Part shown: one piece after another, positions 19,891 through 35,279 of the stretch
Numbering within the stretch: position 1 is the first letter of the stretch
Layout of the letters: every line of letters starts with the position of its first letter
Origin: Bosea sp. BIWAKO-01
Lineage (GTDB): Bacteria > Pseudomonadota > Alphaproteobacteria > Rhizobiales > Beijerinckiaceae
Reading direction: 5' to 3'
DNA: 64,000 bases
Assembly (NCBI RefSeq): GCF_001748145.1
Contig: NZ_BCQA01000001.1
Location: forward strand, 4,180,501 to 4,244,500
Translations under genes and position numbers: made by a program
The notes under the pieces: generated by a model
What the model saw: only the letters and a program-made list of their open reading frames with translations
What the model was told of the DNA's origin: nothing
Database searches by the model: none

Positions 19891-20694
19891 TCAGCGCCGC
19901 CGGCTTGCCGCATAGAGCGCGATCGCGGTGGCGTTTGAGACGTTGAGGCTGGTGATCGCGCCCGGCACTTCAAGCCTTGCGAGATGGTCGCAGAGATCGC
20001 GGCTGCGCTGACGCAGGCCTTTCCCTTCCGCACCCATAACCATGACGAGCGGCCGCTGCAGGGCGATTTCGTCGAAGGCAGTCGCTCCTTCCGAATCAAA
20101 GCCGATTCGCTGGAAGCCGCGCTTGCCAAGCTGGTCCAGCGCATCGCCGAGATTGCGGACCGCGATCAGCGGAACATGCTCGAGCGCGCCGGATGCCGAT
20201 TTTGCCAGCACGCCGGTCGCTGCCGGGGAATGGCGAATCGTGACGATCACTGCGGCAGCGCCGAATGCGGCGGCCGAGCGCAGGATCGCACCGACATTGT
20301 GCGGGTCGGTGATCTGGTCAAGCGCGAGCACGATCGCATCGTCGGGAAGGCTGTCCAGATCAGGCGAGGGCAGGGGATCGCAGACGAGATAGAGGCCTTG
20401 ATGCACGGCATCTGGAGTGAGCAGGCGGTCGATCTCGGACGGGCGGACCAGCTCGGGTTCGAGCGGCAGCGTGCCGACCTCCTCGCTCAGCCGCTTCAGG
20501 GCGTTCTCCGTGGCGAGAAGGCGTCGAAAGCGTCGGTTGGGATTGCGAAGTGCCTCGATCACCGGATGGACGCCGTAGAGCACGGCCTCGTCGATATCGC
20601 CGGGCCGGTGTGGCGGGGGGCCGGCATCGCGGTCGCGGCGTGCGAAGGGCTTGCCGCCGGACCAGGCCGGCTTGGGGCGGAACGGCGCGGGCAT
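19891..20694 (-). CDS. rlmB: 23S rRNA (guanosine-2'-O-)-methyltransferase RlmB (TrmH/SpoU family)
   Basis: A 267-residue SPOUT-fold methyltransferase. N-terminal substrate-binding domain with LYGVHPVIEALRNPNRR; catalytic region ALDQITDPHNVGAILRSA (motif 1 Arg), MVMGAEGKGL (motif 2) and ITSLNVSNATAIALY (motif 3). Methylates the ribose of G2251 in the 23S rRNA P-loop. In Rhizobiales rlmB is followed by tRNA-Tyr, tRNA-Gly and tuf, which is the order here until the break in tRNA-Gly. Confidence 0.92.
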   Translation of the reverse strand: MPAPFRPKPAWSGGKPFARRDRDAGPPPHRPGDIDEAVLYGVHPVIEALRNPNRRFRRLLATENALKRLSEEVGTLPLEPELVRPSEIDRLLTPDAVHQGLYLVCDPLPSPDLDSLPDDAIVLALDQITDPHNVGAILRSAAAFGAAAVIVTIRHSPAATGVLAKSASGALEHVPLIAVRNLGDALDQLGKRGFQRIGFDSEGATAFDEIALQRPLVMVMGAEGKGLRQRSRDLCDHLARLEVPGAITSLNVSNATAIALYAASRRR

Positions 20695-21572: not shown

Positions 21573-21657
21573 GGGGGAATGTCCCGAGCGGCAAAGGGGG
21601 CGGACTGTAAATCCGCTGGCTATGCCTTCGCAGGTTCGAGTCCTGCTTCCCCCACCA
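21573..21657 (+). tRNA. tRNA-Tyr (anticodon GTA)
   Basis: Acceptor GGGGGAA (21573-21579) pairs with TTCCCCC (21647-21653). Anticodon loop ACTGTAAAT gives GTA (Tyr). A long variable arm (class II tRNA), T-arm CAGGTTCGAGTCCTG and encoded CCA (21655-21657) are present. Confidence 0.95.
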
Positions 21658-21706
21658 TCGTGTCTTGTCTATGTTGATGCCGCCGTCAGGCGGTGTCGCA
21701 CCCGGC

Positions 21707-21739
21707 GCGGGTGTAGCTCAATGGTAGAGCAGCAGCCTT
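21707..21739 (+). pseudogene. Truncated tRNA-Gly, 5' half only (candidate island junction)
   Basis: The sequence starts GCGGGTGTAGCTCAATGG, the usual 5' half of alphaproteobacterial tRNA-Gly(TCC), and runs through the D-arm into the anticodon stem (AGCAGCCTT). At 21740 it stops matching: the expected CCAAGC anticodon and 3' half are missing. It lies where the order rlmB, tRNA-Tyr, tRNA-Gly, tuf is expected, so it is the remains of the native gene. The shared AGCCTT at the break and in the intact copy at 21847 could be the crossover core. Confidence 0.75.
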
Positions 21740-21846
21740 AATGCGCCATGGTTCAAAACGTTCAAGTTCGACAAGCGTCGGCGGCTTGCAAAAAGTAGGT
21801 GGCGGTTGCGAGTTGAGTTTGATAAGGCGTCAGCAATGGCGCACAC

Positions 21847-21920
21847 GCGGGCGTAGCTTAGTGGTAAAGCACTAGCCTTCCAAGCTAGCTATGGGGGTTC
21901 GATTCCCCCCGCCCGCTCCA
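21847..21920 (+). tRNA. tRNA-Gly (anticodon TCC), divergent copy
   Basis: Complete cloverleaf: GCGGGCG pairs with CGCCCGC, anticodon loop CTTCCAA (TCC, Gly), T-arm GGGGGTTCGATTCCCCC, and encoded CCA. It differs from the truncated copy upstream in the acceptor stem, D-arm (GTAGCTTAGTGG) and anticodon stem, so it is not a simple duplication. It likely supplies tRNA-Gly(TCC) after loss of the native gene and may have come with the island. Confidence 0.93.
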
Positions 21921-22241
21921 TTTACCGACACTCTGCTGTGCGTTGGCCATGGGGCATGCGACCATGCTCATACGGTCGTGGATATGATGAGCCCGTCCCA
22001 CTGGTTGACTTGGTGTAACCGCTAGGGCTGTGCACAGGCTGGCCCGGCGCGCCCTCAATAGCGCTGTAGCCGGGCCAGCCTGTGTGCAGGCCGGGTCCAG
22101 AAGAGCACTTCTGATTCGCATTTGGCGCGGTGAGTAATTCGGTGGTCCGGCAGTCGGAAGGTCATTTGCGAATCAATTGTCCTTCCGGTTGGGCGTGCGA
22201 GCGGGTCCAAGCGGCGCCTCTGCGGAGGTATGAATTCCCGC
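21921..22241. other. Non-coding region at the start of the island
   Basis: No gene is supported here. It contains the strong inverted repeat at 22037-22082. The rest shows no coding pattern on either strand. Confidence 0.5.
22037..22082. repeat. Inverted repeat next to the tRNA-Gly
   Basis: Perfect 13-bp arms AGGCTGGCCCGGC (22037-22049) and GCCGGGCCAGCCT (22070-22082) around a 20-nt spacer; pairing continues outward imperfectly (TGTGCAC / GTGTGCA). No T-run follows, so it is a poor terminator. Its location just inside the island junction suggests an attachment- or recombination-related site, but this is inference. Confidence 0.6.
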
Positions 22242-22598
22242 TTATGGTGCCTTCGGCTTGTGCCGGCTGAGTGGAATGCGGCCGTGCCCCTCCCGGAGGG
22301 GGATCGGTACTCCAGTTGCCGGAACAAAGCCGGCAGCATCGAGGGCTTCTCCGAACGATTGCGTCCGTGCGACCAATTCGATGATCTCGATTAGTTCGTT
22401 TATCGAGAGGACAACCGTCATTTCTCCTGGCGCATCCCCCGTGGCCGTTAGAACGGTTGGAGCGTCCTGCGCGGCACCAGGCCGGTCTATTTCCAAGGGT
22501 CGCCGGGCAAGTTCGACCAAGGATCCTAGCAAACGTTCTTTCGAATTCTCGGTCGCGTGAGCGGCGTCGCGAATGCGTTGTGCAAGCTGCTTATCCAT
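22242..22598 (-). CDS. Hypothetical protein, last gene of the FtsH-like cassette
   Basis: A 118-residue protein starting at the ATG 22596-22598 (MDKQLAQRIRDAAHATENSKERLLGSL), only 2 bp after the stop of the DUF6634 gene, so the two are probably translated together. It is helical at the N-terminus, with a hydrophobic middle (MTVVLSINELIEIIELVART). No family recognised. Co-linear with the ParA-like, FtsH-like and DUF6634 genes. Confidence 0.6.
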   Translation of the reverse strand: MDKQLAQRIRDAAHATENSKERLLGSLVELARRPLEIDRPGAAQDAPTVLTATGDAPGEMTVVLSINELIEIIELVARTQSFGEALDAAGFVPATGVPIPLREGHGRIPLSRHKPKAP

Positions 22599-22600
22599 GG

Positions 22601-22933
22601 TCAGCCGTCCAGCTTTGTGCCGCGCGGAGCACCCAACCGGTACCATCGGGATATCGTCCTCGCCCACCCTCGCTGCGCGTCGAGAAAGAAAAGGCCTGAC
22701 GTAGCGATGGGTCGACCTATCCCGGGGAGTTCGGGGTGTTCGGAAACCTCACCTATAAGGCAGCGCTCGGCTCGCGTACCCACCCACCAACGATCAATGG
22801 TCGGGGCGCTTAAGCGGGTTGTATAGGTCCCGGCGGCCACCGCTTCCAAGTCGTCCGCGAGCCGCCGAAGTCTTTCGACCTCTCGACCAAGCGTCGCGCG
22901 CTCCTCCGAGGAAACGCCACCCCACATCAGCAT
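22601..22933 (-). CDS. DUF6634 family protein
   Basis: A 110-residue protein. The segment ERLRRLADDLEAVAAG, then APTIDRWWVGTRAERCLIGEVSEHP and GWARTISRWYRLG match the small DUF6634 family of Alphaproteobacteria as I remember it (pattern LAxDLxxIAxG ... C/LxGxVxGHP ... GWARTLSRFYRLG). Function unknown. It lies 76 bp downstream of the FtsH-like gene and 2 bp upstream of the next gene. The overall fold is not predictable from this view. Confidence 0.6.
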   Translation of the reverse strand: MLMWGGVSSEERATLGREVERLRRLADDLEAVAAGTYTTRLSAPTIDRWWVGTRAERCLIGEVSEHPELPGIGRPIATSGLFFLDAQRGWARTISRWYRLGAPRGTKLDG

Positions 22934-23009
22934 CTACATTCCCTCCGGCCAGCCAACCCAGGCCGTTTCGTGTGTGCAGCTCAGGCGAATCGCCGAAACA
23001 CCTGCGCGT

Positions 23010-24962
23010 TCATTGGAGCTCACTGGGTCGTACTGGTTTCGACAAGTTCTCGGCGACACTCCGACCGCCGCTTGAGCCTGCGAACAACTTGACGAGATCG
23101 GGCCCAGCGATTCGCTTCTTTGCTAGAAGCTCCTCCGTCGTTCGGTCCGCCTCGATCCGGTGATCTTCTACGAGCAAACGTGCCCTGCTCATCTGTTCGG
23201 CAAGAATCTTCTCGATTCGCTCGCGAACGGCCTGCGACGTGTGGAGCAGGCGCCAGAGATCGGCTTCTCCATCCGCGGCCAGAAACGCCAATCCTTTGCC
23301 GAGTCCATAGGATGCCTCAAGCCGCAGTGCGACTAGGGTCGCAAGGTGAAGGTCGCTACCGCGGATCCCACCACCTCCAACCGACCGACTACCCAGGATG
23401 ACCTCCTCCGCAGCAATGCCCCCCAGCAGGAAACAGATCTCGTCAAGCAGCGCATTGGTCGTGATTTCGGCGACGCTATTCCCGGCGATTTGGACGCCGC
23501 CCAATGCTTGGTACCCCCAGGCCAGTTCGGCCGTGTCGCGGATCTCCACGAACTCAAAGGGCCTCTCCAGCACGACTGCGACAGTCGCATGGCCGGCCTC
23601 GTGGATGGCCGTGCGGCGCAGCATCTTTTCCGGGATCGCAATTGTGGGCGGAAGCGACGCCAGGAGGTCGGCGATCGAGATGGCTCTCCGCGCCCGGCGA
23701 GCCAACCGACGGGCTTCGCGAGCGAGTTGCTCCAATGCAGCTCCACTCCAGCCCTCTGTCCGGGCGACGATCGCAGACAGGTTCTCGCCCTGAAGCGCAT
23801 TTTCAAGATGCCAGCGGATGATGCCCTCTCGGGCGGGACCGTCAGGGAGCGGCATTCGGACATGGCGGTCCAAGCGTCCCGGTCGAACGAGAGCGGCGTC
23901 GAGCCGATGCGGGTGGTTGCACGCACCGACCACAATCACCCCTTCTCGTTGCTCCGCGCCGTCGATGCATTCAAGCAAGGCTGCGACGACTTCCGTGCAG
24001 TACTGGGCGTTGTGGTCGGCGAATTTCTCCCGATCCCCGACTGCATCAATTTCATCGATGAAAATGATGGAAGGAGCCTTGCGACGTGCCTCGTCGAAGG
24101 CCGCGCGCATTGCCTTGAGCAAGTCGCCAAGATGACCACGTGCCTGCCATCGCGCGAGTGATCCCAGAACCAAATGAACGTCGCAAGTGGCGGCCAGCGC
24201 TTTCACAAAAGTCGTCTTACCGGTTCCCGTCGGCCCGCTAACAAGGATTCCCCTATCGACATCGGGCCAGCCGATCCTACCCTCGCGCCAATCTTGCAGA
24301 TCGATGGCGAGTTCCCGCGCCCAGCTTCCGGCCTCGCCAAGGCCGTGCAGATTCTCGATTCGGAGTTGTCGCACCTCGACCGGCGTCGAGCTCGCCTGGG
24401 CCTTTCGCATGCACTCAAGCGATTGGGAAATAGGTCGCCCGCGCCGGAGCATAGTGTGGATGAAGGCAAGCGGCATGGACGCCAATTCCTGTGCCTGCTG
24501 CGTGCTCATACGCTGCTTCAGACAAACTCTGCCTGCCGCGGCGAGATGGCGAGGCTCTGGCACCGCAAGTTCAACGACGCCGTCAACCGCTGCGAGCACC
24601 ATGTCCGGAAGCTCGGCAGTGGCTCTGGCCAGGACGACGAACCGGTCCTCTTTCAGGATGTCATCCTTGAACGAATCCTTTCTCCCCTTGACCCAGTGCT
24701 CCCAGGCATTCTCGATCCTCGTCGACGGCGCGACGCCGAACGCATTGCCCAAACGGGGGCGTGTGGTCGCAAACTTCACCGCCAGCCGATAGTCGTCAGC
24801 ATCGGCCCCTTCCGGCAGCAGCAAGACCAGCGCCAGCGGCCCCCCAAGACGCAACTGCGGATAACCTCGACAGCACCGAACGATCATGGAGTACGCAAGG
24901 AATCCGCCAACATTCTTGGTGATCCTGTCGCGCTCCCGGAACGCCGTCACGCTTCGATTCAT
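23010..24962 (-). CDS. Soluble FtsH-like AAA+ ATPase with M41 zinc peptidase domain
   Basis: A 650-residue protein from the ATG 24960-24962, with ribosome site GAAGGAAT. Domains: N-terminal unknown region (1-205), AAA+ module with Walker A GPTGTGKT (243-250), Walker B IIFIDEID (299-306) and SRH RPGRLDRH (360-367), then an M41-type peptidase with HEAGH (454-458) and a candidate third zinc ligand Asp at about 537 (GSDLHLAT). All catalytic residues needed for ATP-driven proteolysis are visible. Unlike true FtsH it has no clear N-terminal membrane segments; the N-terminal domain is different. It is part of a minus-strand cassette with a ParA-like gene and DUF6634, and is not the housekeeping FtsH. 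Confidence 0.85.
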   Translation of the reverse strand: MNRSVTAFRERDRITKNVGGFLAYSMIVRCCRGYPQLRLGGPLALVLLLPEGADADDYRLAVKFATTRPRLGNAFGVAPSTRIENAWEHWVKGRKDSFKDDILKEDRFVVLARATAELPDMVLAAVDGVVELAVPEPRHLAAAGRVCLKQRMSTQQAQELASMPLAFIHTMLRRGRPISQSLECMRKAQASSTPVEVRQLRIENLHGLGEAGSWARELAIDLQDWREGRIGWPDVDRGILVSGPTGTGKTTFVKALAATCDVHLVLGSLARWQARGHLGDLLKAMRAAFDEARRKAPSIIFIDEIDAVGDREKFADHNAQYCTEVVAALLECIDGAEQREGVIVVGACNHPHRLDAALVRPGRLDRHVRMPLPDGPAREGIIRWHLENALQGENLSAIVARTEGWSGAALEQLAREARRLARRARRAISIADLLASLPPTIAIPEKMLRRTAIHEAGHATVAVVLERPFEFVEIRDTAELAWGYQALGGVQIAGNSVAEITTNALLDEICFLLGGIAAEEVILGSRSVGGGGIRGSDLHLATLVALRLEASYGLGKGLAFLAADGEADLWRLLHTSQAVRERIEKILAEQMSRARLLVEDHRIEADRTTEELLAKKRIAGPDLVKLFAGSSGGRSVAENLSKPVRPSELQ

Positions 24963-25251
24963 CGCGAATTCCTTCTGGCCCCGGCCAGGATTCGATCCCT
25001 TGCGAAATGGAGAGACCCCAGGCCTGCTCGCGGCCAGTCGGAGCAACCGTCCTTCCGAGCCCATCGCATTTCGCTTCGCGCCGTTTGCGACAGGATTGGC
25101 CCCCGGCGTTCGACGCCGAACTCCGGCGGTTCCGAGCCACCCGGCGATCCTGCTCCAAAGATGACTGAGTTATACCGCCGCCGCCGACTTTCGGTTGACG
25201 ATCAGAGGGTTGGGCCTCTCATCCGATGGCGGCACGACCTACGCGCTCCCG

Positions 25252-25953
25252 CTAGGACGCATCGTGCGGGACCTCCAACAGAGAGCTGCCCGTTGTCTTC
25301 AGCACGGCATGCGCGATCACCTCCGCCGCCATCGCTCGAAGCGATGACAATGCAATTCGACCCTCTACGATGAGAGGCTCTGACCTGAAATCGAACCACG
25401 GAATTCCGCCTGGTTGGATCACACGATCGCTCGTTGGCGCCGGAAGCCGGAGACGTCGCGTGACGCGACCAAGGATTGGTTCGTAGTCCAACTGACGCAT
25501 TGCCGATGGCCAGCCCACCGGCAAAATCCATGGCAACCCGAGACCCGGTTGTACGGGCACGCCAGCAATCTGGTGGAAATCCCGAGCAACCTGCTCAACA
25601 TCAGCGGAACTCGTCCACATGGGCAGTAGCATTCGAACTGCCGGATCGGTGATCCATCCTCGGTCAAATGTGGACGCCGGAAGGTCAACGACTATCGCCT
25701 CGGTTCTTGAGGCTTGGCCTACGCACAGCTTGATTTCTGCCAAGCTCGGAGCGCGCTTATTGGCTGCGAGCCAAGTCGCCCCAAATGGGGCGGTCGCCTC
25801 TCCTTGGAGCATTGGCTGCTCGTCGCTCGCCGTGACCTGGATGTGAAGCGTATTCAACCCGAGCTGGCTCAATCCGAGAGCTAGCAGGAGGCTGGCGGTC
25901 GTCCTACCCGAATACGCACTCGAGCCGGCAATGAGGAAAGTCTCCATTTTCAC
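25252..25953 (-). CDS. ParA/MinD-like P-loop protein with a degenerate Walker A
   Basis: A 233-residue protein starting METFLIAGSSAYSGRTTASLLLALGLSQLG, the topology of ParA/MinD ATPases (beta strand, P-loop, helix). The P-loop reads GSSAYSGRTT: the essential Lys is Arg and the deviant first Lys is absent, so ATP binding may be weak or lost. A later AIVVDLPASTFDRG corresponds to the Walker B-like region. The ATG has the ribosome site AAGGAAGTGAAA. It is the first gene of the minus-strand cassette and is divergent from the XRE gene. Confidence 0.7.
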   Translation of the reverse strand: MKMETFLIAGSSAYSGRTTASLLLALGLSQLGLNTLHIQVTASDEQPMLQGEATAPFGATWLAANKRAPSLAEIKLCVGQASRTEAIVVDLPASTFDRGWITDPAVRMLLPMWTSSADVEQVARDFHQIAGVPVQPGLGLPWILPVGWPSAMRQLDYEPILGRVTRRLRLPAPTSDRVIQPGGIPWFDFRSEPLIVEGRIALSSLRAMAAEVIAHAVLKTTGSSLLEVPHDAS

Positions 25954-26026
25954 TTCCTTTCGAATCCTTGCTGCGGCCGATTCGGGAGGAGCCTATCAAC
26001 GGGAAAGCGCGAGATCCATATGAAAT

Positions 26027-26040
26027 GACAAATATTTGTC
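26027..26040. promoter_or_regulatory. Perfect palindrome, candidate operator between the ParA-like and XRE genes
   Basis: GACAAATATTTGTC is a perfect 14-bp dyad in the AT-rich 166-bp divergent gap. A TTGACA (26076-26081) lies downstream toward the XRE gene. The best-supported guess is that it binds the neighbouring XRE regulator or another factor; no binding data exist here. Confidence 0.5.
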
Positions 26041-26119
26041 TTTTAAGGTCATTAAGCGCCTCATTGGGCAAATTGTTGACAAGCTGGATTTCGCAATCTT
26101 CCTGTGCTTTTTCAATGGA

Positions 26120-26365
26120 ATGCTTACTTCCGGACGGTTCCTGAAAGCTGCCCGCGTTGGCTTGGGACTAAGTCCCGAGCAAGTCGCCGAGGAAGCAGGG
26201 ATCAGCCGCACCTCCCTGAGCAGGTTGGAGGCGGGATCTGACAAGGTCGCGCTGAAGCTGTTCATCGCGGTCCAGAACGTGCTGGAACACCACGGGATCA
26301 AGTTCCTCACCGGCGATGGCTCCACCGGGCCGAGCATCCGCTTTCCCGTCGATTATCGAGGCTAA
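26120..26365 (+). CDS. XRE-family helix-turn-helix regulator
   Basis: An 81-residue protein from the ATG 26120. The helix-turn-helix lies in GLSPEQVAEEAGISRTSLSRLEAGSD (about residues 16-41), typical of the Cro/C1 family, followed by about 40 residues without a second domain. It is divergent from the ParA-like/FtsH-like cassette and is the likely repressor of both directions through the palindrome at 26027-26040. The ribosome site is weak; upstream in-frame starts exist. Confidence 0.8.
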   Translation: MLTSGRFLKAARVGLGLSPEQVAEEAGISRTSLSRLEAGSDKVALKLFIAVQNVLEHHGIKFLTGDGSTGPSIRFPVDYRG

Positions 26366-26519
26366 GGCAGGCCGATCAGTGCCCCTTGGGCGAGCGGCGG
26401 CCCGGCCGCACTCAACCGCGTGCTCAGCGTCCTTGCCCCAATCTCGCTGGTTGCATTGCTAGCAACACTAGTGCTGCTCATCGGCTTCCAAGGCGACACA
26501 CAGGTCGGCGCGACCGAGA

Positions 26520-26765
26520 TCAGCTTGTCCGGTCTTCCGTTGTCGACGTCTTCCGCATCTCGTAGTCAACAACAGCGAGCTGGAGGGCTGCCCGCTCTTG
26601 GGCCTCTCGGGGATTGGGTGTCGCGCCTTCGAGATACCCAATGCGCCGAAGCGCATAGTGGTACTCGTCCGGAGAAGCGAGACGAATGCTGGGTTCCGGC
26701 TTCAGTGTCACCGCGGCGCGGCGGAGGATAGCGGCAACCCCACGTAACAAGCTGGTTGCGGGCAT
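26520..26765 (-). CDS. Small protein resembling the N-terminus of HigA-type antitoxins
   Basis: An 81-residue protein. The C-terminal part DEYHYALRRIGYLEGATPNP and ALQLAVVDYEMRK is similar to the protein at 41201 (DYRYALQRIGQLEDAKPNS, ALRAAIIRYEQRE) and to the N-terminal region of HigA antitoxins (pattern EYxxALxxIexLmxAxPxTxE ... L..LV..YE). The helix-turn-helix domain of HigA is missing. No toxin gene is adjacent. It may be a remnant domain or an independent regulator; similarity to HigA is from memory. Confidence 0.5.
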   Translation of the reverse strand: MPATSLLRGVAAILRRAAVTLKPEPSIRLASPDEYHYALRRIGYLEGATPNPREAQERAALQLAVVDYEMRKTSTTEDRTS

Positions 26766-26986
26766 GACACCCCCCTGCGGTCGCCAGCGCTGAGCCGATT
26801 GATGGGAAATTCGGTTGGTACCATTGCCACATCAAACCGGCCAGCGCGGGATTTGTTCGTCCCGTTCATCGTGTGTGACCGGGGGATTTGCCTTTCACCC
26901 TGTCGACAGCAAGCCGAGGGCGAGCCGGTGCCGGAACATAAAGCGCGGGCAGAAGTTCTCACTACCCTCTAAACGGAGCCGCCGTG

Positions 26987-27253
26987 ATGAGACCCATGGA
27001 ACCTATCGGAACGGGCCACCAACTCGCCCTCAGAATGGCCGCCCGGTTCCCACGCGAAGACTGGATCGCCCCCCTTGTCGCCCGTACCGGTTTGAGCCGG
27101 CAGACCATCGAATGGCATCTTCACGAAGAGACCGAGCTGCCGGCGGACATTCTGGCTGTGGCTGCCGAACTTCTTTCTTCGCCAGAGAGGGATCGCGAGG
27201 AAGGATCAGTAGGAGACAATCTTCTGACGGAGGATGATTTGCCGTCCCGATGA
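26987..27253 (+). CDS. Hypothetical protein, paralogue of the gene at 35660
   Basis: An 88-residue protein with ATG at 26987 (a GTG at 26984 is also in frame) and GGAGCC upstream. Segment RTGLSRQTIEWHLHEETELPADILAVAAEL resembles RSGRTRGSVEWLLQQRSVVPAGLFCAAIAL in the protein at 35660, so they are paralogues of a small island family. The region looks like a helix-turn-helix-like fold followed by a helix, but no family is recognised. Confidence 0.55.
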   Translation: MRPMEPIGTGHQLALRMAARFPREDWIAPLVARTGLSRQTIEWHLHEETELPADILAVAAELLSSPERDREEGSVGDNLLTEDDLPSR

Positions 27254-27672
27254 TTGGTGGCATGCCTCCTCCACCGCGCTGGCCCGGGTGGTGATCTCGG
27301 TGATTTCTGGCTCGGTTAGGGTTGGCGGCCGCCGCAGAAGAATCCGGGCGAGCCGTGGATAATTCGCTGCGTCCGTGCAAGGCTGTCGCCACCGGCGGTC
27401 CGCCACCGAGGGGCGTTGTGACCCTACGTTCATGATCAAACGGATCCCCTGACCCATACCAAGGAGGGGGTAGGATCTGAGACCTTTGCCCCTATTCCAG
27501 AATGGGAGCCGCGAGCAGCAATATCGCCTTCGTTCCTTGAGGGCTCGACGTGGTGGGATTGCTCATCATTGCGGCTTCAATGCCAGGTTTCACCCTCGGC
27601 GATTTATTTGACGATTTTGGCTTCGCAATCCATCGCACGGACCGGCCGACGCACAACGCAAGGTAGCCTGGC
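27254..27672. other. Gap with no supported gene
   Basis: 419 bp without a convincing reading frame on either strand, and no tRNA or clear terminator. Frames exist only as short runs rich in Arg and Pro, typical of antisense or non-coding GC-rich DNA. Confidence 0.4.
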
Positions 27673-27894
27673 ATGCGTGAAGAACGTCCAGACCGTAGGC
27701 GAAACCGGGCGCCAGCGTACCCAAGCCGCCGCTCCATGATGCTGAGCTCGGAGGCGGACTATATCCGGGCCTGTGCCCGCGCTTGCGAGCTCCATGCGGC
27801 TGCTCGCCACCCGATGGCTGAGGTGGAGCTCGAGAATTTGGCTCTCGCCATCCTGACATGGGAAGTCAGGGGCGGCGGGCCGAACGGGATCTGA
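27673..27894 (+). CDS. Small hypothetical protein
   Basis: A 73-residue candidate. The basic N-terminal part (RPDRRRNRAP) may not be translated; an alternative ATG at 27736 gives MMLSSEADYIRACARACELH. The later part is helical and has HPMAEVELENLALAILTWE. Coding is plausible but there is no recognised family. Confidence 0.4.
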   Translation: MREERPDRRRNRAPAYPSRRSMMLSSEADYIRACARACELHAAARHPMAEVELENLALAILTWEVRGGGPNGI

Positions 27895-27983
27895 GCGCCA
27901 ATGCGTGCAATGGTGTTGGCTGATGCCGAGAGACCTCGGTGATCGCGTCCCGGCATGGCAGCGGGGTTCCGGCCCAGCCCAGG

Positions 27984-28289
27984 CTATTGGGGTTTGTTCA
28001 CGCGGAAGCTAAGCGCCTCGAAAATGCGATCAAGTTCTCTGGTGAAACTGTCATCAAGATCGTCAGCGACGAGGCCTTCACGATGCGCGACCATCGACAG
28101 CAAGGTCTCCCGGAGCTGTTGGCAGTGGGCGCGGAGTTCGGCGAGGTTGGCGTTGGCCTCTCCTTCCGTATCGGCGCCGATCGCCGAGACGTAACCAAGG
28201 AGGATTATCACCGCAGCTTCCAATGCATGCGTGGTCCCGAGAAGGCTCGGGGGGCCTTCGGGGTCATGCGGGTCGATGGTGAAGGTCAT
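27984..28289 (-). CDS. Hypothetical helical protein
   Basis: A 101-residue protein: a short hydrophobic stretch (LEAAVIILLGYVSAIG), then heptad-like helical sequence NANLAELRAHCQQLRETLL and DLDDSFTRELDRIFEALS. Stands alone upstream of the mer genes. No family recognised. Confidence 0.55.
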   Translation of the reverse strand: MTFTIDPHDPEGPPSLLGTTHALEAAVIILLGYVSAIGADTEGEANANLAELRAHCQQLRETLLSMVAHREGLVADDLDDSFTRELDRIFEALSFRVNKPQ

Positions 28290-28420
28290 GCCCTAGTTCT
28301 CCCTCAACACTGGAGCCAGCAACCCGCTCTTGAATGCGCGCTGAGCCTCGGCCGCACCGCCGCATCGGCAAGCCACCTCTGAAGCGCCTCCTGTGCCGAT
28401 CTCGCGATCCGACAGTGGCT

Positions 28421-28681
28421 TCAAGGTAGCGCCCGTCTCGGCCCCGGCGTGCTCGGCCGGGCGCAGCAACGAGTTGCCTCGAGAGAGCCCCATGCGGCGG
28501 CCTGGATTGGTAGGCATGGCGCGGACCCGTAGGAACAGTACACGCAGCAATCACCTTCCAACGGCCTCAGGAGCGCGCCACACCCTTTGCATTCGTAGAA
28601 ATACTGGCAAGCGTCGGTGGGCATCGTTTCCGTCGCGGCCTGAGCACAGTGCGGGCACGTGATTGTCGATTGAAACTGCAT
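28421..28681 (-). CDS. GDCCVxC-domain small metal-associated protein
   Basis: An 86-residue protein starting MQFQSTITCPHCAQAATETM and containing EGDCCVYCSYGSAPCLPIQ, the GDCCVxC signature of a small cysteine-rich family (some members carry selenocysteine) that is commonly encoded beside merT. It starts 5 bp after the merT stop, in the same operon. Likely binds a soft metal such as Hg(II). About 25 residues follow the usual family end (CxPIQ), so the 3' end may have been altered. Confidence 0.75.
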   Translation of the reverse strand: MQFQSTITCPHCAQAATETMPTDACQYFYECKGCGALLRPLEGDCCVYCSYGSAPCLPIQAAAWGSLEATRCCARPSTPGPRRALP

Positions 28682-28686
28682 CTGCA

Positions 28687-29106
28687 CTATCGCGTCAGTT
28701 TGAGGAGGATTGGTTCGACATAGGGCCCCCACACAAGCGCCAGGCCGACGACACCCGAGCCAAGGCCGAGCATGATCGTGGTACGCGCTGATCCGGGGGG
28801 CGCAGCGCAAGCGCCACCACCGTCACAGACGGGTCTGCGCCTCCGCCAGAAGAATACCCCCCAGCCCAACGCCAACATGATTGTTGCTCCGCCGAGCAGT
28901 GGGAGGCGCATGTCAGCAAGAAATGCCAAGCCGCTGAAGACCGCCCCAGTGACCCCGAGACCGGCGAGGGCCATTGGCAAGACACAACACGAGGACGCGA
29001 CAAGTGCACCGAACCCGATAATGGCACCAGCGCCTGCCAGCGGCCGCGAGGATGGCGCCGAAAGGGGCTCTGGCGTGGCTGAGGCTCCGAGTTCCGTGCT
29101 GGTCAA
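28687..29106 (-). CDS. merT: Mercuric transport protein MerT
   Basis: A 139-residue membrane protein with three hydrophobic segments; the Cys-Cys pair in the first (FGALVASSCCVLPMALAG) is the Hg(II)-binding motif of MerT, and a second Cys pair region (CDGGGACAAPP) lies in the loop. It imports Hg(II) for reduction by MerA. The gene is divergent from a truncated merR and sits upstream of the GDCCVxC gene. No merA or merP is visible, so the operon is incomplete. Confidence 0.85.
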   Translation of the reverse strand: MTSTELGASATPEPLSAPSSRPLAGAGAIIGFGALVASSCCVLPMALAGLGVTGAVFSGLAFLADMRLPLLGGATIMLALGWGVFFWRRRRPVCDGGGACAAPPGSARTTIMLGLGSGVVGLALVWGPYVEPILLKLTR

Positions 29107-29141
29107 GGTGGTGCTCCATCACGATCCATGGCACCCTGCCA

Positions 29142-29158
29142 CCCGTAGCTACTACGGG
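29142..29158. promoter_or_regulatory. MerR-type operator dyad, mer copy 1
   Basis: Perfect palindrome CCCGTAG-CTA-CTACGGG between divergent merT and truncated merR. Dyads of this spacing lie in the long-spacer promoters controlled by MerR-family activators. The same element occurs in copy 2 with one mismatch. Confidence 0.6.
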
Positions 29159-29170
29159 ATCAAGCGAAAA

Positions 29171-29341
29171 ATGCCCACGCCGATGCGAGGCATCACGGCC
29201 GGCCAGCTAGCCAAAGCCGCGAGCGTGAATCTCGAAACGATCCGTAGCTACGAAAACATCGGGCTCATGCCCGAGCCACCCCGCACGCGAGGCAGTCACA
29301 GCGCCTGCGGACACGTCGCCCCGGGTCCGCGGCGTGCCTAG
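29171..29341 (+). pseudogene. merR copy 1, truncated after the DNA-binding domain
   Basis: Starts MPTPMRGITAGQLAKAA like the intact merR at 29856 but ends after 56 residues. The sequence is near-identical to copy 2 until about residue 42 and then diverges (GSHSACGHVAP), so the metal-binding C-terminal half is gone. It also has Tyr-to-Ser changes at a helix position normally Tyr-Tyr (SYEN, where copy 2 has YYEN). Not expected to respond to mercury. Confidence 0.85.
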
Positions 29342-29354
29342 TATTGGCACTCCG

Positions 29355-29618
29355 TTAGGACCTTCTTTGCGTGCAATCAGCGGCGCCCTTGGGACGCGGG
29401 CCTGAAACAATTTCATAGAACCGCCGAACGGCCAGCGACGCCAGATCGACCTTCGGATCCGCCGACCACAACGCCGTGGTAATGCGCGCAAGGCGCTGGC
29501 GTTCGTGCGGTGCGTCCTTCGGGGCGATCTCGGGCGCGATCTCGCTCCATGCCTCATCGAAAGCCGCGGCGATCCGGACAAGCTCTTCGGGCGTCGTGAC
29601 AATTGATCGGAACGGCAT
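29355..29618 (-). CDS. Hypothetical protein, MPFRSIV family member 1
   Basis: An 87-residue protein starting MPFRSIVTTPEELVRIAAAFDEAW; the ATG has GGGGAAATG before it. Two related proteins occur in this window: one at 34494 starts MPFRSIVATPEELAGIVAAFEDAW, and another at 63384 shares DAAWDEI and a later ERxRLxYIVAAL. Helical, no catalytic motif recognised. This family is a small island-borne paralogue group of unknown function. Confidence 0.6.
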   Translation of the reverse strand: MPFRSIVTTPEELVRIAAAFDEAWSEIAPEIAPKDAPHERQRLARITTALWSADPKVDLASLAVRRFYEIVSGPRPKGAADCTQRRS

Positions 29619-29696
29619 CATTTCCCCTTTTGCCGGGTCGCAGCCTGGCCCAGCGCGAGTCTGTCTTTGGCAAGTCGCGGTACAAGCAAGTGAAAA

Positions 29697-29797
29697 GCAC
29701 CACTTCCGGCGCCAGTGCCTGCCAGAGGTAGCGCAGACGCTGCCGGAACGGGCTCCGATGTGGCTGTGGTTTCGGGTTCGATACTGACCGAGGTGGT
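29697..29797 (-). pseudogene. merT copy 2, 5' fragment only
   Basis: On the minus strand a stretch encoding VSIEPETTATSEPVPAAS then LPLAGTGA aligns with the start of MerT (TSTELGASATPEPLSAPSS, RPLAGAGA) upstream of the intact merR. The frame is lost afterwards, before the first membrane segment. It is the counterpart of the truncation in copy 1. The positions are approximate. Confidence 0.6.
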
Positions 29798-29826
29798 GAT
29801 CTATCGCGATCCATGCCAGTCTGCCA

Positions 29827-29843
29827 CCTGTAGCTACTACGGG
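29827..29843. promoter_or_regulatory. MerR-type operator dyad, mer copy 2
   Basis: CCTGTAG-CTA-CTACGGG, one mismatch from the perfect dyad of copy 1, upstream of the intact merR at 29856. Confidence 0.55.
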
Positions 29844-29855
29844 ATCAAGCGAAAA

Positions 29856-30263
29856 ATGCCCACGACGATGCGAGGCATCACCGCCGGCCAGCTAGCCAAA
29901 GCCGCGGGCGTGAATCTCGAGACGATCCGCTACTACGAAAACATTGGGCTCATGCCTGAGCCACCCCGCACGCGAGGCGGTCACCGCGCCTATGATGAAG
30001 CCCATACCAGACGGCTTGCCTTCATTCGGCGGGCGCGCGAACTGGGCTTCACCATCGAGGATGTTCGGGCCCTGCTGGCCTTGACCAACCCGGAGCACAC
30101 CTCCTGCGCGCAGGTGAAGGAGATCGCCGTCACGCACTTGACGCAGGTGCGTAACAAGATCGCTGACCTCGCCAGGCTTGAGACCATTCTCGACGCGACG
30201 ATCTCCCGTTGCACGAGCGAGCCGACGGCCCATTGCCCGGTGCTCGATATGCTTGAACCCTAG
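29856..30263 (+). CDS. merR: Mercuric-resistance regulator MerR
   Basis: A 135-residue MerR-family regulator with the winged helix-turn-helix GQLAKAAGVNLETIRYYEN at the N-terminus and three cysteines in the canonical mercury-binding positions, residues 84, 119 and 127. It should repress and, on Hg(II) binding, activate a mer promoter. In this window the only intact mer target is merT in copy 1. The start is the ATG 13 bp after its operator dyad. Confidence 0.9.
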   Translation: MPTTMRGITAGQLAKAAGVNLETIRYYENIGLMPEPPRTRGGHRAYDEAHTRRLAFIRRARELGFTIEDVRALLALTNPEHTSCAQVKEIAVTHLTQVRNKIADLARLETILDATISRCTSEPTAHCPVLDMLEP

Positions 30264-30516
30264 CGAAGATGCCGATTGTGTCTTCTGCGTGCGCGCCAGT
30301 CGTGAACTTCGGAAAGTCAGGCGCCGGCCGAGTTGGCCTCGACCTTGATAGCGCAACGGCATCTGACGGCATCTGGTGCTGTGCTACGCAAAAGGTTCTG
30401 CGCCGACGCTTGAGGCACCTGACCGAAGCGCCAGAAGCGAGCGTACCGCCGCAAAGGCACCGGCCGACCGGGAGGTCGACCGGCGGATGAGCGCACCCAA
30501 GTGTTGCAGGAAGCGC
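30264..30516. other. Gap downstream of merR
   Basis: 253 bp with no coding region I can support and no clear terminator; nothing distinctive on the minus strand. Confidence 0.4.
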
Positions 30517-30765
30517 TCATCGGTTGAAGGCTCTGGGCTGGCCGCTGAAGTCAGCTTGCGCTGCAACGACCACCTCCAGACGATTGCGCACGTTCAGCTT
30601 GGCCATCAGGGTGGTCATGTAGCCCTTGACGGTCTTGGCGCTGAGCGAGAGCTCGTCGGCGATCTCGCTGTTCCGCTTCCCGCGCAGCAGCAGCCTGACG
30701 ATCTGCTCCTCCCGGACGCTGAGTCTGTCACCGAGCGGCCCCGTCAGATTCGAAGCGCTGCTCAT
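30517..30765 (-). CDS. LuxR-type DNA-binding protein, stand-alone
   Basis: An 82-residue protein consisting of only a LuxR/FixJ-type helix-turn-helix (LSVREEQIVRLLLRGKRNSEIADELSLSAKTVKGYMTTLM). The receiver domain of a response regulator is missing. Its ATG overlaps the stop of the upstream secreted protein gene (ATGA), so the two are translationally coupled. It may be a short regulator of the GerE type or the truncated end of a response regulator. Confidence 0.75.
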   Translation of the reverse strand: MSSASNLTGPLGDRLSVREEQIVRLLLRGKRNSEIADELSLSAKTVKGYMTTLMAKLNVRNRLEVVVAAQADFSGQPRAFNR

Positions 30766-31835
30766 CGGGGATTGCTCGCAACAGATCCCAACGAGGCGGT
30801 CGACTGTGGCGGGAAGCGCGGCTGGAGCCGGTCTGCCCCATTCACTGGGAATGGAAAACCAAGCACCGTGGAGCGGCCGCGAACCCGGTTCTGCGCCTGG
30901 CAATTCTGGACGCATTCCGTGGCTGGCGGAGCGACCTCGACCGCATCCTCGCCCATCACCTGGCCCATGCGGCCGCCACTCGCCACGTCCCAGCGGGAGA
31001 CGCCGCCGCAATGGCGCACCGTCGCGAATGGGATAGCGGGGAAGCGGGTGGCGATCCGGTTCTCGCAGTCCGGTTCCGCCCGGCGCGTGGCGACCTGTGG
31101 GCTGTCCCTGCCGACGAACTTGCGGGAGAAGTCATTGCCGAAATTGACGCGGGCCGGGACGATCACCGTGATGTCCTTGTAGGGAACCTCGTCGCCTTCC
31201 CGGTCCCGGAAGTTGCGGTTGTCGAAATAGAACGCCTTCAGTTGTGGGTTGGGTCCTTCCGCCAGGACGTGGGTGAACAGCGTCGGCGTTCCATCCTGGC
31301 GCTCCACCTCCATCTGGAAGATGCCGCCATTGGCGCAGTCCTTGGCCTGGCTCTTCATGCTGATCCCCAGACCCGTGCGCCCGATCTCGATCGATTCCCC
31401 CGTGATCTCGACGGTGAGGCCACTGTTCAGGGTCAGCCCGCGATGGTCGGGCAGTTTGCTGGCGAAGACCGGGGTCGGCACTCCGCCCGTGATGTCGAGC
31501 GGGTTTGGCGCGCCGGTCATCGTGAAGTTGCGGATACCCAGGGTCGCCGCGTCAACATCGAATTGGTTGTATTTGCCCTGCACGCGAAAACTCGTTCCAA
31601 GGGCGCTGGCGGGGATCGTGGCATTCTGGGTGCGTCCGAGTACTGAGAACGCGCCCCCCTCGCACCCGGCCGACGACGCGGCATCGGCTCCCCCTGCCGC
31701 CAGGCTCAGCGGCAGGACAGCAAGCATCACCAGCCCGAGATTGCCTCCGGTGCGACGAATGTCGCCAGAGCAAGCATGTGCTGGGCTCATCGCCGCGGAA
31801 ACAGAAAGAAACGGCAAATAACATCGAGGAGACAT
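30762..31835 (-). CDS. Secreted hypothetical protein
   Basis: A 357-residue protein from the ATG 31833-31835, which has the ribosome site AGGAAGG. A hydrophobic signal-type stretch (LGLVMLAVLPLSLAAGGADA) lies about residues 30-50. The mature part starts with CEGGAFSVLGRTQNATIP and is beta-rich, with several Cys. No recognised family. The last 100 residues are of lower quality (Arg/Pro-rich) and could be partly non-native. Coupled to the LuxR gene. Confidence 0.55.
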   Translation of the reverse strand: MSPRCYLPFLSVSAAMSPAHACSGDIRRTGGNLGLVMLAVLPLSLAAGGADAASSAGCEGGAFSVLGRTQNATIPASALGTSFRVQGKYNQFDVDAATLGIRNFTMTGAPNPLDITGGVPTPVFASKLPDHRGLTLNSGLTVEITGESIEIGRTGLGISMKSQAKDCANGGIFQMEVERQDGTPTLFTHVLAEGPNPQLKAFYFDNRNFRDREGDEVPYKDITVIVPARVNFGNDFSRKFVGRDSPQVATRRAEPDCENRIATRFPAIPFATVRHCGGVSRWDVASGGRMGQVMGEDAVEVAPPATECVQNCQAQNRVRGRSTVLGFPFPVNGADRLQPRFPPQSTASLGSVASNPR

Positions 31836-32371
31836 GATGGTCCTTCCTGGAATTTTGGCCGATCGACAGCCCCGCCCGAAACAGGGCGCCAGTTCCATCC
31901 AAGATCAAATTTGGCTTGGGCGACCGCCCAGCGGTATGGAGGCCGCTCCACTGCAACGATGTTGTGGCGTTCCAGATGCCACAACGGTCGGACCCTACGC
32001 CGGTGAAGCTGACATTTGGCTGACAGCCTTTTTATACCTTTGAGGGAAAGCCAACATCCTTTCGTCGGGCGACTGCTCAATAGCGATTACTGGACCGCCG
32101 AGGCAATCGGTGGCCCCCATCTTCCATTTTAGTTTGCTGCCATTGCGTCGGCTCATATCAGGTGGCTCTGATGCCTTCCGGGGATAGCACCTTGGCGGGC
32201 GAGAACCTCGATCGAGCTGACCTCGCTGGTCTCGTCATCCCCTGAATCGGAAGGGTTTCCGCCTCCTAGGCGCGGCCGAGAATTTGCCCGCCTCGCCCGG
32301 CATCCACCGGCTCCTGGAAGGTCGCCGGGATCTCGCCCCTGAGCAGACGTTCCGAAGGTCGCAGACGGGTG
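31836..32371. other. Gap upstream of the secreted protein, including repeat R copy A
   Basis: No gene supported. The stretch 32242-32371 is one of three degenerate copies of repeat R (other copies at 44068-44250 and 51682-51866). Confidence 0.4.
32242..32371 (+). repeat. Repeat R, copy A (partial)
   Basis: Aligns with the other copies from CTGAATCGGAAGGGTTT to CGCAGACGGG, with small deletions. IS1182 copy 1 is inserted right at its end. This copy lacks the GCGGCATTAGG end motif. Confidence 0.6.
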
Positions 32372-33919
32372 GAGGCCGTGTGGAAACGTCTTTCAGGGTC
32401 GTGCTCTGACGATGCGACAGGGTCTGAGGGTCAGGCTCTCATGGCCTTCATCAACGTCGCCGCGCCGAGGATGGCGATGGCCCGCTTGAGATTGTAGGCC
32501 AGCACATGGAGGCTCATCTCGGTTCCGACATTGGGGAGGTGGCGGGTCAGGAAGTGACTTCGGCCCATCCAGTCCTTGATCGTGCCGAAGACGTGCTCGA
32601 CCGTGCGCCTTCGGATCCGCATGGCGTCGGGCATGCGATCGAGCCGGCGCTGCATGGCCTCGATCACCACCTCGTGCTCCCAGCGCTTGATGCGGCGCTG
32701 CTTGCCGGTGGTGCATTGGTCTTTGACCAGGCAGGCTCCGCAGCCGTCGGCCCAGTAGGTATGGAGTGTCAGATCCTTCTCGACCGATGAGAAGCGCCAT
32801 GTGAGCGTCTCGCCGGCGGGACAGCGATAGGTGTCGCTCGGAGCATCGTAGGTGAAGTCCTGCTTGCCCCAGCGCCCGTCGGCTTTGGCCCCTGATGTCA
32901 GGGGCTTGGGGACGATGGCGGAGATGCCGATCTCGTCGCAGGCCAGGACCTCCTCGCCTGAGAAGTAGCCGCGATCGGCCAGCACAGTCAGCGCACCGGC
33001 TCCTGTCGCATCCTTTGCCTGACGCCCCATGCTGGCGAGCTGGCTGCGGTCGTGGCCGATGTTGGTGACCTCATGAGCCACGATCAGATGATGTTTGGCG
33101 TCGACCGCCGCCTGAACGTTGTAGCCGACGAGGCCAGTGCCCTTGCCGTTGGTGGCCATGGCGCGGGCGTCGGGATCGGTCAGCGAGACCTGACGGTCTG
33201 GCGCCACCGCGACGACGTGGTCCATCGCCTGGAGGTCACGCATCTGCTGACGCAGGCGATCAAGCCGGTCCTTGAGGCGGATGCTGCGCATCTGCGCGAC
33301 GTCATCCTCCTGCCGGTCGGCCGTATCGAGCAGCGACAGATAGCGTGCGATGCTTGCCTCCACCTGCTCCATCCGGCGACGGATCGCGCCGGGCGTGAAG
33401 TTCTTGTCGCGCGTGTTGACGGCCTTGAACCGGCTGCCGTCCACGGCCACGGTGCCGCCTGCCAGAAGGCCGAGTTGGCGGCACAGCACGACGAACTGCG
33501 CGCAGGCAGCCCGGATCGCAGCCCCATTGTCACGGCGAAAGTCGGCGATGGTCTTGAAGTCGGGCGCAAGCTTGCCCGTCAGCCACATCACCTCGACGTT
33601 GCGGCCGGCCTCGCGCTCCAGCCGGCGGCTCGACTGAACCTGGTTGAGGTAGCCGTAGAGGTACAGCTTGAGAAGGGTAGCGGGGTGGTATCCAGGCCGC
33701 CCCGTCGAGGCCGGGCCGGCAAAGCCCATCGTTCCCAGATCGAGTTCGTCGATGAAGACATCCACCACCCGGACCGGATTATCTTCGCTGACGTAGTCCT
33801 CAAGACAGTCGGGCAGGAGCAGTCTCTGCAGCCGGGTCTCGCCTTCGATGTAGCGCGCCATGCAAGCCCTCGGATCGCTCCAGAAAGCCTACCAGATCAG
33901 CCCGTTTCCACACAGCCTC
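32372..33919 (-). mobile_element. IS1182-family insertion sequence, copy 1
   Basis: About 1.55 kb, ends deduced from the inverted repeats GAGGCCGTGTGGAAACG (left) and CGTTTCCACACAGCCTC (right). A 4-bp GGTG flanks both sides as candidate target duplication. Carries a single transposase gene on the minus strand. The whole element is, by eye, identical to copy 2 at 51867-53414. Confidence 0.8.
32431..33861 (-). CDS. IS1182-family transposase, copy 1
   Basis: A 476-residue DDE transposase: N-terminal MARYIEGETRLQRLLLPDCL and GRPGYHPATLLKLYLYGYLN are IS1182-family signatures; the DDE residues are in AVDGSRFKAVN, VLADRGYFSG and the late VEHVFGTIKDWMG. It is full length with no frameshift and identical to copy 2, so it may be active. 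A strong coding-like antisense frame on the plus strand (33052-33987) is its shadow. Confidence 0.9.
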   Translation of the reverse strand: MARYIEGETRLQRLLLPDCLEDYVSEDNPVRVVDVFIDELDLGTMGFAGPASTGRPGYHPATLLKLYLYGYLNQVQSSRRLEREAGRNVEVMWLTGKLAPDFKTIADFRRDNGAAIRAACAQFVVLCRQLGLLAGGTVAVDGSRFKAVNTRDKNFTPGAIRRRMEQVEASIARYLSLLDTADRQEDDVAQMRSIRLKDRLDRLRQQMRDLQAMDHVVAVAPDRQVSLTDPDARAMATNGKGTGLVGYNVQAAVDAKHHLIVAHEVTNIGHDRSQLASMGRQAKDATGAGALTVLADRGYFSGEEVLACDEIGISAIVPKPLTSGAKADGRWGKQDFTYDAPSDTYRCPAGETLTWRFSSVEKDLTLHTYWADGCGACLVKDQCTTGKQRRIKRWEHEVVIEAMQRRLDRMPDAMRIRRRTVEHVFGTIKDWMGRSHFLTRHLPNVGTEMSLHVLAYNLKRAIAILGAATLMKAMRA

Positions 33920-34045
33920 GGTGGTCAGCGGACCATCGGGCCTGCGAATGCGATTCCCAGTCCGTGCTCGCCAATTGTCCGGGCTAGTGTCGCCTCAGAA
34001 ACATAACAACTGCCGGGCGTCCTGATCCTTCGCCCGGAATTAACT

Positions 34046-34079
34046 GGCCCGCCGCTCCGAAAGGGGGCGGGCCATTTTT
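34046..34079 (+). terminator. Rho-independent terminator
   Basis: Stem GGCCCGCC / GGCGGGCC with 12-nt loop followed by ATTTTT. No protein gene precedes it in this window. Confidence 0.75.
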
Positions 34080-34139
34080 CGCGGCACCGCACTTTCCAAT
34101 GCGCGTTTGTCCGCAAGACGACCCATGAACCCCTGACTT

Positions 34140-34174
34140 GGCCCGCTGTGGGTTGACGCCGCGGGCCCTTTTTT
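34140..34174 (+). terminator. Second Rho-independent terminator
   Basis: Stem GGCCCGC / GCGGGCC with a 14-nt loop followed by CTTTTTT. It lies 26 bp upstream of the cold-shock start. Confidence 0.7.
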
Positions 34175-34199
34175 GGGCTCAGGGGTCCGGAGGACAGTC

Positions 34200-34397
34200 A
34201 TGACGACGGGAACTGTGAAGTGGTTCAACCCCACCAAAGGATTTGGTTTTATTCAGCCTGACGACGGCGGGCACGATGTCTTTGTTCACATCAGCGCCGT
34301 GGAGCGCGCGGGATTGCGCATCGCTTACGATCTCGTTCCGGACCAACGCCTTTACAACGGCACACTTCTTCCTCCCGCGTACCCATTTGTGGTATGA
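34200..34397 (+). pseudogene. Cold-shock protein, C-terminally truncated
   Basis: Starts [20 protein letters not shown] then [19 protein letters not shown], which is the complete N-terminal two-thirds of CspA-family proteins with the RNP1 (KGFGFI) and RNP2 (VFVHI) motifs. At 34317 the match ends and the frame runs into unrelated sequence ([12 protein letters not shown]) to a stop, 65 residues in all. The last two strands of the fold are missing, so it is probably non-functional. Its ATG is preceded by CCGGAGGACAGTC, a good ribosome site. Confidence 0.8.
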
Positions 34398-34493
34398 TAA
34401 CAACGCCTTGGCTGGATCGGGCGGCGGCTGGGTATTCGCACTTGCACTGATGGAAGTAGTTTTTGAACTGTGCGGTTCGCAGGGGAGGAAGCG

Positions 34494-34787
34494 ATGCCGT
34501 TTCGATCGATTGTCGCCACGCCCGAGGAACTTGCCGGGATCGTGGCAGCGTTTGAGGATGCATGGCGCAAAATCGATGCACGGGGATCTATCGATCCCCA
34601 AAGGGTTTCCGCTGAACGGGAGCGTCTCGGATACATCGTTGCGGGTTTGTGGTCGGCGGACCATACGCGCGCACTGGCGGAGTTGGCGGTAAAACAGTTC
34701 GATGAAACTGCCGTGGCTCCTAGCGCCCCAGTCCCCGTTAATGTGCGCGGAAGTTCCCCGAACAATGTAGGCACGCCGGGGAACTAG
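34494..34787 (+). CDS. Hypothetical protein, MPFRSIV family member 2
   Basis: A 97-residue protein starting MPFRSIVATPEELAGIVAAF, with ribosome site GGGGAGGAAGCG. It is a clear paralogue of the protein at 29355 over the first 75 residues, with ERLGYIVAGLWSADHTRALAELAV. The C-terminal 25 residues (APSAPVPVNVRG) are not shared and are disordered. Function unknown. Confidence 0.6.
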   Translation: MPFRSIVATPEELAGIVAAFEDAWRKIDARGSIDPQRVSAERERLGYIVAGLWSADHTRALAELAVKQFDETAVAPSAPVPVNVRGSSPNNVGTPGN

Positions 34788-35226: not shown

Positions 35227-35247
35227 CACCTAGCGCCATTGAGACTG

Positions 35248-35279
35248 AAAACGGCCGGTTCGACCGGCCGTTTTCTTTT
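35248..35279 (+). terminator. Rho-independent terminator of the lipoprotein gene
   Basis: AAAACGGCCGGT-TCG-ACCGGCCGTTTT stem-loop followed by CTTTT. On the minus strand there is also an A/T tail, so it could act in both directions. Confidence 0.8.

Follow-up and report, generated by a model that had tools for sequence, protein, structure and literature searches.

Breaking a tRNA gene by integration and replacing it with a copy carried on the integrant is a principle known in phages. In temperate phages it is described as tRNA-dependent lysogeny (Guerrero-Bustamante and Hatfull 2024, mBio, PMC10865867). These phages use one lambda-like integrase, and two tRNA-Gly(TCC) phages listed in Table 2 of that paper rebuild the tRNA. 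In Sinorhizobium meliloti, a tRNA gene is inactivated by integration and a foreign isoacceptor on the integrant replaces it (PMC11476347). The inserts are phage-related sequences, including islands of phage origin; the available text of that paper notes no multi-recombinase operon. RIT elements (PMC3414803) and phiLM21-like prophages (PMC12429752) are further described systems.

Two types of multi-recombinase elements resemble the present locus in other respects. GInts have a four-gene operon at one end, encoding three recombinase-related products and a small protein, carry cargo, integrate site-specifically and have short, imperfect repeats that fit a staggered exchange of 6 nt (PMC5385486, 2017). 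Their third protein, GinC, is without the first catalytic Arg, and GinA and GinB have the motif. SEs have the gene order intA, tfp (without RHRY), intB and srap, imperfect inverted terminal repeats and a 6-bp spacer that stems from the target on one side and is foreign on the other, named fingerprint and footprint (PMC10214605). They are reported mainly from a subset of Gammaproteobacteria, with no Tfp or Srap homologues in Alphaproteobacteria. The word tRNA is absent from the main text of the GInt paper (PMC5385486), and the main text of the SE paper does not mention tRNA (PMC10214605). A survey of E. coli found GInts at several hotspots; tRNA loci made up 18 of the 41 hotspots, as given there (PMC10121019).

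The locus in Bosea sp. BIWAKO-01 combines both sets of features: the principle is that of tRNA-dependent lysogeny, and the element, found in an alphaproteobacterium, is an island of 82 kb whose operon has four genes. Unlike the lysogeny phages as described (PMC10865867), its target is tRNA-Gly(TCC) and the replacement has a fixed place beside one terminus. The observations support, with a probability of about 0.9, a site-specific family of GInt/SE-like islands which destroys tRNA-Gly(UCC) and complements it. A literature search, with most subscription papers and supplements outside its scope, found no GInt- or SE-type element in a tRNA gene and no multi-recombinase island that breaks and replaces one.

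The window, the whole stretch of 64,000 nucleotides that was analysed, covers positions 4180501-4244500 of contig C1 in a genome of 7.33 Mb (G000; two contigs, 100% complete). A sequence-only reading had placed rlmB, tRNA-Tyr and tRNA-Gly in core order, a break of the native tRNA-Gly at 21739 and a separate intact tRNA-Gly(TCC) behind it. The core order was confirmed by Pfam for the SpoU methylase, by ARAGORN for tRNA-Tyr and by sequence for the 5' part of tRNA-Gly. The break is exact to the base and lies in the anticodon loop, and ARAGORN detected the separate gene precisely at 21847-21920. The 5' part, GCGGGTGTAGCTCAATGGTAGAGCAGCAGCCTT (21707-21739), is directly followed by unrelated DNA. 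At attL, the native 6 bp GCAGCC are kept; TT is common to the native gene and the island end. No tRNA was detected by ARAGORN on 21707-21797, a stretch that starts with the 5' half and spans the left junction.

Table. Features of the split tRNA-Gly locus and the island. Positions without prefix are those of the window; L005 and L007 denote stretches outside the window.
Feature	Position	Strand	Basis
rlmB-type SpoU methylase, core flank	19891..20694	-	Pfam SpoU_methylase, E 3.8e-37
tRNA-Tyr(GTA), core, intact	21573..21657	+	ARAGORN
Native tRNA-Gly(TCC) 5' part, attL, cut in anticodon loop	21707..21739	+	Sequence; join with 3' half
Left island terminus TTAATGCGCC	21738..21747	+	Same tRNA position in 4/4 genomes
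Island portion inside the window	21738..64000	.	
Subterminal motif ACGTTCAAG, 20 nt from terminus start	21758..21766	+	Counterparts at other island ends
Replacement tRNA-Gly(TCC), reading inward, 109 bp from island end	21847..21920	+	ARAGORN
FtsH-like AAA ATPase, cargo, under model cut-off	23010..25064	-	NCBIfam TIGR01241, E 1.8e-55, 188.8 bits vs cut-off 600
Topoisomerase IB, two Ku proteins, ATP-dependent DNA ligase (cargo)	44890..50018	.	Pfam
Operon gene 1, 419 aa (outside window)	L005 4167-5426	-	
Operon gene 2, 638 aa (outside window)	L005 2254-4170	-	
Operon gene 3, 660 aa (outside window)	L005 275-2257	-	
Operon gene 4, 186 aa (outside window)	L007 13490-14050	-	
Transposase remnant, unknown 427-aa protein, type I secretion-like ABC transporter, HlyD protein (between 3' half and tuf)	L005:6429-12383		

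The missing half is located at the far end of the island. When the region was searched against its own genome, a 46-bp match appeared 82 kb downstream: the 3' half of the native tRNA-Gly, TTCCAAGC...CCA, at G000:C1 4284202-4284244 (L005 6203-6245). The right junction consists of GGCGCATTACTGCC followed by the 3' half TTCCAAGCTGAATACGAGGGTTCGATTCCCTTCACCCGCTCCA, and no tRNA was detected in the right-junction stretch L005. The target tRNA-Gly is rebuilt at neither junction in this genome. Joined together, the halves form a complete 74-nt tRNA-Gly(TCC) (ARAGORN), 99% identical to the unbroken gene in two genomes of the genus (L045, L071). The earlier proposal that the 5' end was retained rather than the 3' end does not apply: both halves are present, one per island end. 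The island spans 81,964 bp (G000:C1 4202238-4284201). As anticipated from the window, the 3' half is followed by tuf, which starts at C1 4293515 after about 9.2 kb of intervening DNA. Next is tRNA-Trp, and secE, nusG and ribosomal genes were identified behind it by reading the sequence and its translations; in the regions examined, the core genes expected at the other end are thus present.

Relatives support the native arrangement. For 29 same-genus loci, stretches with tRNA-Tyr were fetched, and seven of them show tRNA-Tyr and an intact, unsplit tRNA-Gly(TCC) close together; for the other 22, tRNA-Gly(TCC) lay outside the fetched stretch. The same split tRNA in a relative free of the island occurred at none of the loci whose tRNA-Gly was examined. 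Two points speak against the proposed reading: in G000 about 9 kb of other DNA lies between the 3' half and tuf, and the seven stretches with the closely spaced pair, fetched to about 1.3 kb downstream, contained no tuf (0/7). The spacing itself varies in the genus: between tRNA-Tyr and a tRNA-Gly-like match it ranges from 46 bp (G004) to about 75 kb (G012) at loci including those of G010, G018 and G024, and at some loci the two are on opposite strands. The tRNA-Tyr/tRNA-Gly region looks like a hotspot of change in the genus.

Besides the cargo genes in the table, the island in G000 encodes a transglutaminase-like protein, a sulfatase and transposases; an ImuB-like protein and a DnaE-type polymerase adjoin the operon outside the window. 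A scan of 30 island proteins, among them the four of the operon, brought no conjugation genes to notice. The G+C content is 0.60-0.62 in parts of the island versus 0.64-0.65 in the flanks. Two 476-aa transposase ORFs on the minus strand of the island (32431-33861 and 51926-53356) have identical Pfam scores, and a third 476-aa ORF is located at L006:238-1668.

The recombinase operon occupies the right island end in G000. Its four genes overlap and are open throughout. The 419-aa protein belongs to Pfam Phage_integrase, matches XerC, XerD and XerH in a PDB profile search and has an invariant R227/H334/R337/H385/Y394 set (alignment A2). In the 660-aa protein, R320/H432/R435/H461/Y470 are invariant (alignment A3). 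The 638-aa protein keeps R444/H468/Y477 and has, by our own assignment, N309 at the Arg I position (alignment A1). Judged by these residues, the 419-aa and 660-aa proteins are predicted tyrosine recombinases with a full catalytic set, and the 638-aa protein is one predicted to be without the first catalytic arginine. Its fold matches the XerH, Cre, lambda and Tn1549 integrases (VIA-align); a PDB profile search by sequence with the 638-aa family gave nothing credible. Weak matches were obtained to four plasmid integrases of P. aeruginosa, with about 30% identity over 26% of the query.

The order catalytic, non-catalytic, catalytic and small protein is the one described for SEs (PMC10214605). 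The operon also resembles that of GInts, with the difference that the second protein, not the third, is without the first catalytic arginine (PMC5385486). The likeness to GInts and SEs is one of operon layout and of the ends as described, and for SEs also of the pattern of catalytic residues.

Related islands are present in other genomes. To search 84,980 species genomes, a profile was built from 17 sequences of the 638-aa protein and applied through two short patterns, which distant relatives can escape. The peptide pattern matched 50 stretches, and three loci encode a relative with 43-44% identity: Roseomonas nepalensis (L076), Aurantimonas sp. Leaf443 (L077) and Roseomonas pecuniae (L078). 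In the NCBI taxonomy, both Roseomonas species are now assigned to Muricoccus in the Acetobacterales; Aurantimonas belongs to the Hyphomicrobiales. All three loci have tRNA-Tyr upstream, a 5' half of tRNA-Gly cut at the same base after CAGCC, the terminus TTAATGCGCC and the operon. The 3' halves were found in the same three genomes, with tuf next. The joined halves restore the gene exactly in all four genomes, and this recurrence of one junction excludes chance as the source of the split. In R. pecuniae and R. nepalensis, a single contig holds the whole element, of 60,808 bp and 91,071 bp, respectively; in Aurantimonas, the two island ends are on different contigs and their linkage is assumed. 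On the stretch L117:1-1310 of R. nepalensis, two partial copies of tuf flank an N, which probably marks a join in the assembly.

The near family is rare among the genomes searched, as indicated by low counts at every rank, although distant relatives can be missed. With the 419-aa protein, 4 of 67 genus genomes matched at E up to 1e-8 (the own genome and three weak matches of 29-38% identity), and only the own genome among 397 of the order at E up to 1e-20. The 638-aa profile yielded two of 397 genomes in the family of R. nepalensis (G460), both already known, five of 297 in the family of G461 (four of them weak and partial, the fifth being G461) and one of 385 in the class, the own genome. Viral contigs had no match to the left-junction pattern and no relatives of the 638-aa protein. 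The right-junction pattern matched 70 stretches of viral contigs; these were taken as chance, as the test applied showed a T-arm behind none of them (0/70). Plasmids gave one weak match, an operon of similar layout with about 23-25% identity on pMVF16-3 of Microvirga sp. VF16 (L225, record 534678-540600). This plasmid operon adjoins a gene annotated as Kiwa KwaB-like.

The termini are conserved among the four genomes. At the 5'-half end, TTAATGCGCC is accompanied by a motif like ACGTYCAAG about 20-22 nt in; in R. pecuniae this motif is GCGTCCAAG, which lies outside the pattern of the script and was read by eye. The 3'-half end is TAATGCGCC (GAATGCGCC in Aurantimonas); here the motif lies 15 nt in, again in all four. 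The ends are imperfect inverted terminal repeats, AATGCGCC. The native six bases, GCAGCC or CCAGCC, stand beside the 5' half; the 6 bp beside the 3' half are foreign: ACTGCC in G000, and CTGGCC, ACGTCT and ACCCGT in the others. This agrees with the fingerprint and footprint described for SEs (PMC10214605) and, as imperfect short repeats with a 6-nt staggered exchange, with GInts (PMC5385486). Among the footprints, ACTGCC is similar to a portion of a Gly anticodon stem, unlike ACGTCT and ACCCGT, and therefore no donor is claimed for the footprint. The sequence AGCCTT, shared by both tRNAs at the break, had been suggested as the crossover core. It was rejected: AGCCTT is the conserved anticodon arm and is absent from the replacement tRNAs of the three relatives, which have TGCCTT (twice) and AGATTT (once). 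The partner in the crossover is instead the terminus of the island, GGCGCATT-6 bp-TTAATGCGCC. The operon is located at the 3'-half (footprint) end in G000 and at the 5'-half end in the other three genomes, and the ends keep their orientation; the interior thus appears to have been flipped in one lineage.

These ends bear on the role of the operon. A conventional prophage or ICE integrase could have entered the tRNA, with the recombinase operon as an unrelated passenger, and single tyrosine integrases are indeed described as usually targeting tRNA anticodon arms (PMC8371274). However, the first operon gene starts 28-776 bp from an island end in all four genomes, and no further integrase was noted there. 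The relatives of the operon were searched regardless of site, and all three are in this site. The inverted-repeat ends with a mismatched 6-bp spacer are those described for GInt and SE elements. A passenger operon is therefore very improbable, and the operon itself likely carried out the integration.

The replacement tRNA-Gly(TCC) has a constant position. It lies just inside the end opposite the operon and reads inward in all four genomes, at a distance to the end of 109 bp in G000, 229 bp in R. pecuniae, 215 bp in Aurantimonas and 232 bp in R. nepalensis. Its position opposite the operon in both operon placements makes it part of the island and not of the host locus. Replacement and native gene of the same genome share 76-81% identity (81% in G000). 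Between Aurantimonas and R. pecuniae, the replacements are 95% identical and the native genes 86%; hence the tRNA travels with the element. The replacement of R. nepalensis is without an encoded CCA. A simple scan upstream of the island tRNA, conducted for G000 only, revealed no sigma-70-like promoter. The source of the replacement was sought in phages for the G000 region and in plasmids for the R. nepalensis region, and both searches gave distant tRNA matches only.

Could the second tRNA-Gly be an old host duplicate, the island having landed in the first of two tandem copies? The arrangement in G000 would suit this, as the 5' half and the intact gene share a strand and are separated by 107 bp. 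In the three relatives, however, the replacement is at the other end of the insertion and on the other strand; where the element is contiguous, it lies 61 or 91 kb away from the 5' half. The identities also speak against a duplicate: the replacement has only 81% identity to the native gene in G000, and those of Aurantimonas and R. pecuniae are nearly identical. At the seven near-relative loci with the close pair, ARAGORN reports one tRNA-Gly(TCC) and no tandem second. The duplicate is thus very improbable. An assembly artefact or a chromosomal rearrangement as the origin of the split has a negligible probability: G000 is known as an assembly only, without reads, but it consists of two contigs at 100% completeness, the break is identical to the base in three other assemblies and the halves rejoin exactly in four of four.

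The site-specific island with its own tRNA remains as the explanation. Integration into the anticodon arm with an island-borne replacement, as deduced from the window, is supported by the 3' half and tuf, by the intact relatives and by the three further genomes. The operon proteins would recombine the joined ends of a circular element with the anticodon arm of tRNA-Gly(UCC) in the tRNA-Tyr/tRNA-Gly/tuf cluster. Strand exchange would span about 6 bp, native GCAGCC; the 6 bp of the target would stay beside the 5' half and the foreign 6 bp would land beside the 3' half. Integration would split the tRNA-Gly without rebuilding it. What would let the integrated island persist is the complete tRNA-Gly(UCC) gene of its own, placed just inside the end remote from the operon.

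The need for such a rescue may differ among the genomes. By the wobble rules, TCC is the Gly anticodon that reads GGA. Typing covered each of the 46 tRNA genes found in G000; for Gly, they include one intact TCC gene, that of the island, one GCC and one CCC. The host tRNA is probably essential for GGA codons, and the island tRNA is presumably expressed and charged. For Aurantimonas and R. pecuniae, genome searches gave no other TCC gene, with only part of their tRNAs typed. Outside the island, R. nepalensis carries a second tRNA-Gly(TCC) gene, an atypical one (L232:1470-1543, G460:C88), and rescue is therefore not strictly needed there. The ORFs around this gene encode, as read from the translations, MarR-like proteins and proteins whose tail is PEP-CTERM-like.

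The anticodon stem of the replacements differs from the native one, most in R. nepalensis and least in G000, which keeps AGCCTTCCAAGCT. The difference may thus shield the replacement from self-insertion, in a manner that is not uniform across the genomes. A further-reaching interpretation is tentative and falls somewhat short of even odds: the three-recombinase family may have specialised on the near-unchangeable anticodon loop of tRNA-Gly(UCC) in a tRNA swap. Control of the essential tRNA would pass permanently to the element, whose own copy would be spared by an anticodon arm that drifted from the att site. The native gene would never be returned if the island moved by copying, as SEs are thought to do. 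If this holds, any deletion of the end with the replacement tRNA would kill the cell.

Split tRNA halves together with a tRNA of the same anticodon beside a terminus provide a signature for such islands, and island finders that seek a rebuilt tRNA are expected to miss them. The explanation accounts for the foreign tRNA isoacceptor beside the island end and gives a way to test how an element, once integrated, makes its own loss difficult. The target in the anticodon arm is nearly invariant because the tRNA must work, and this would give a wide host range. Phages are thus not alone in breaking a key tRNA gene and providing a substitute for it: another class of mobile elements does so too, at one identical nucleotide in members of the orders Acetobacterales and Hyphomicrobiales.
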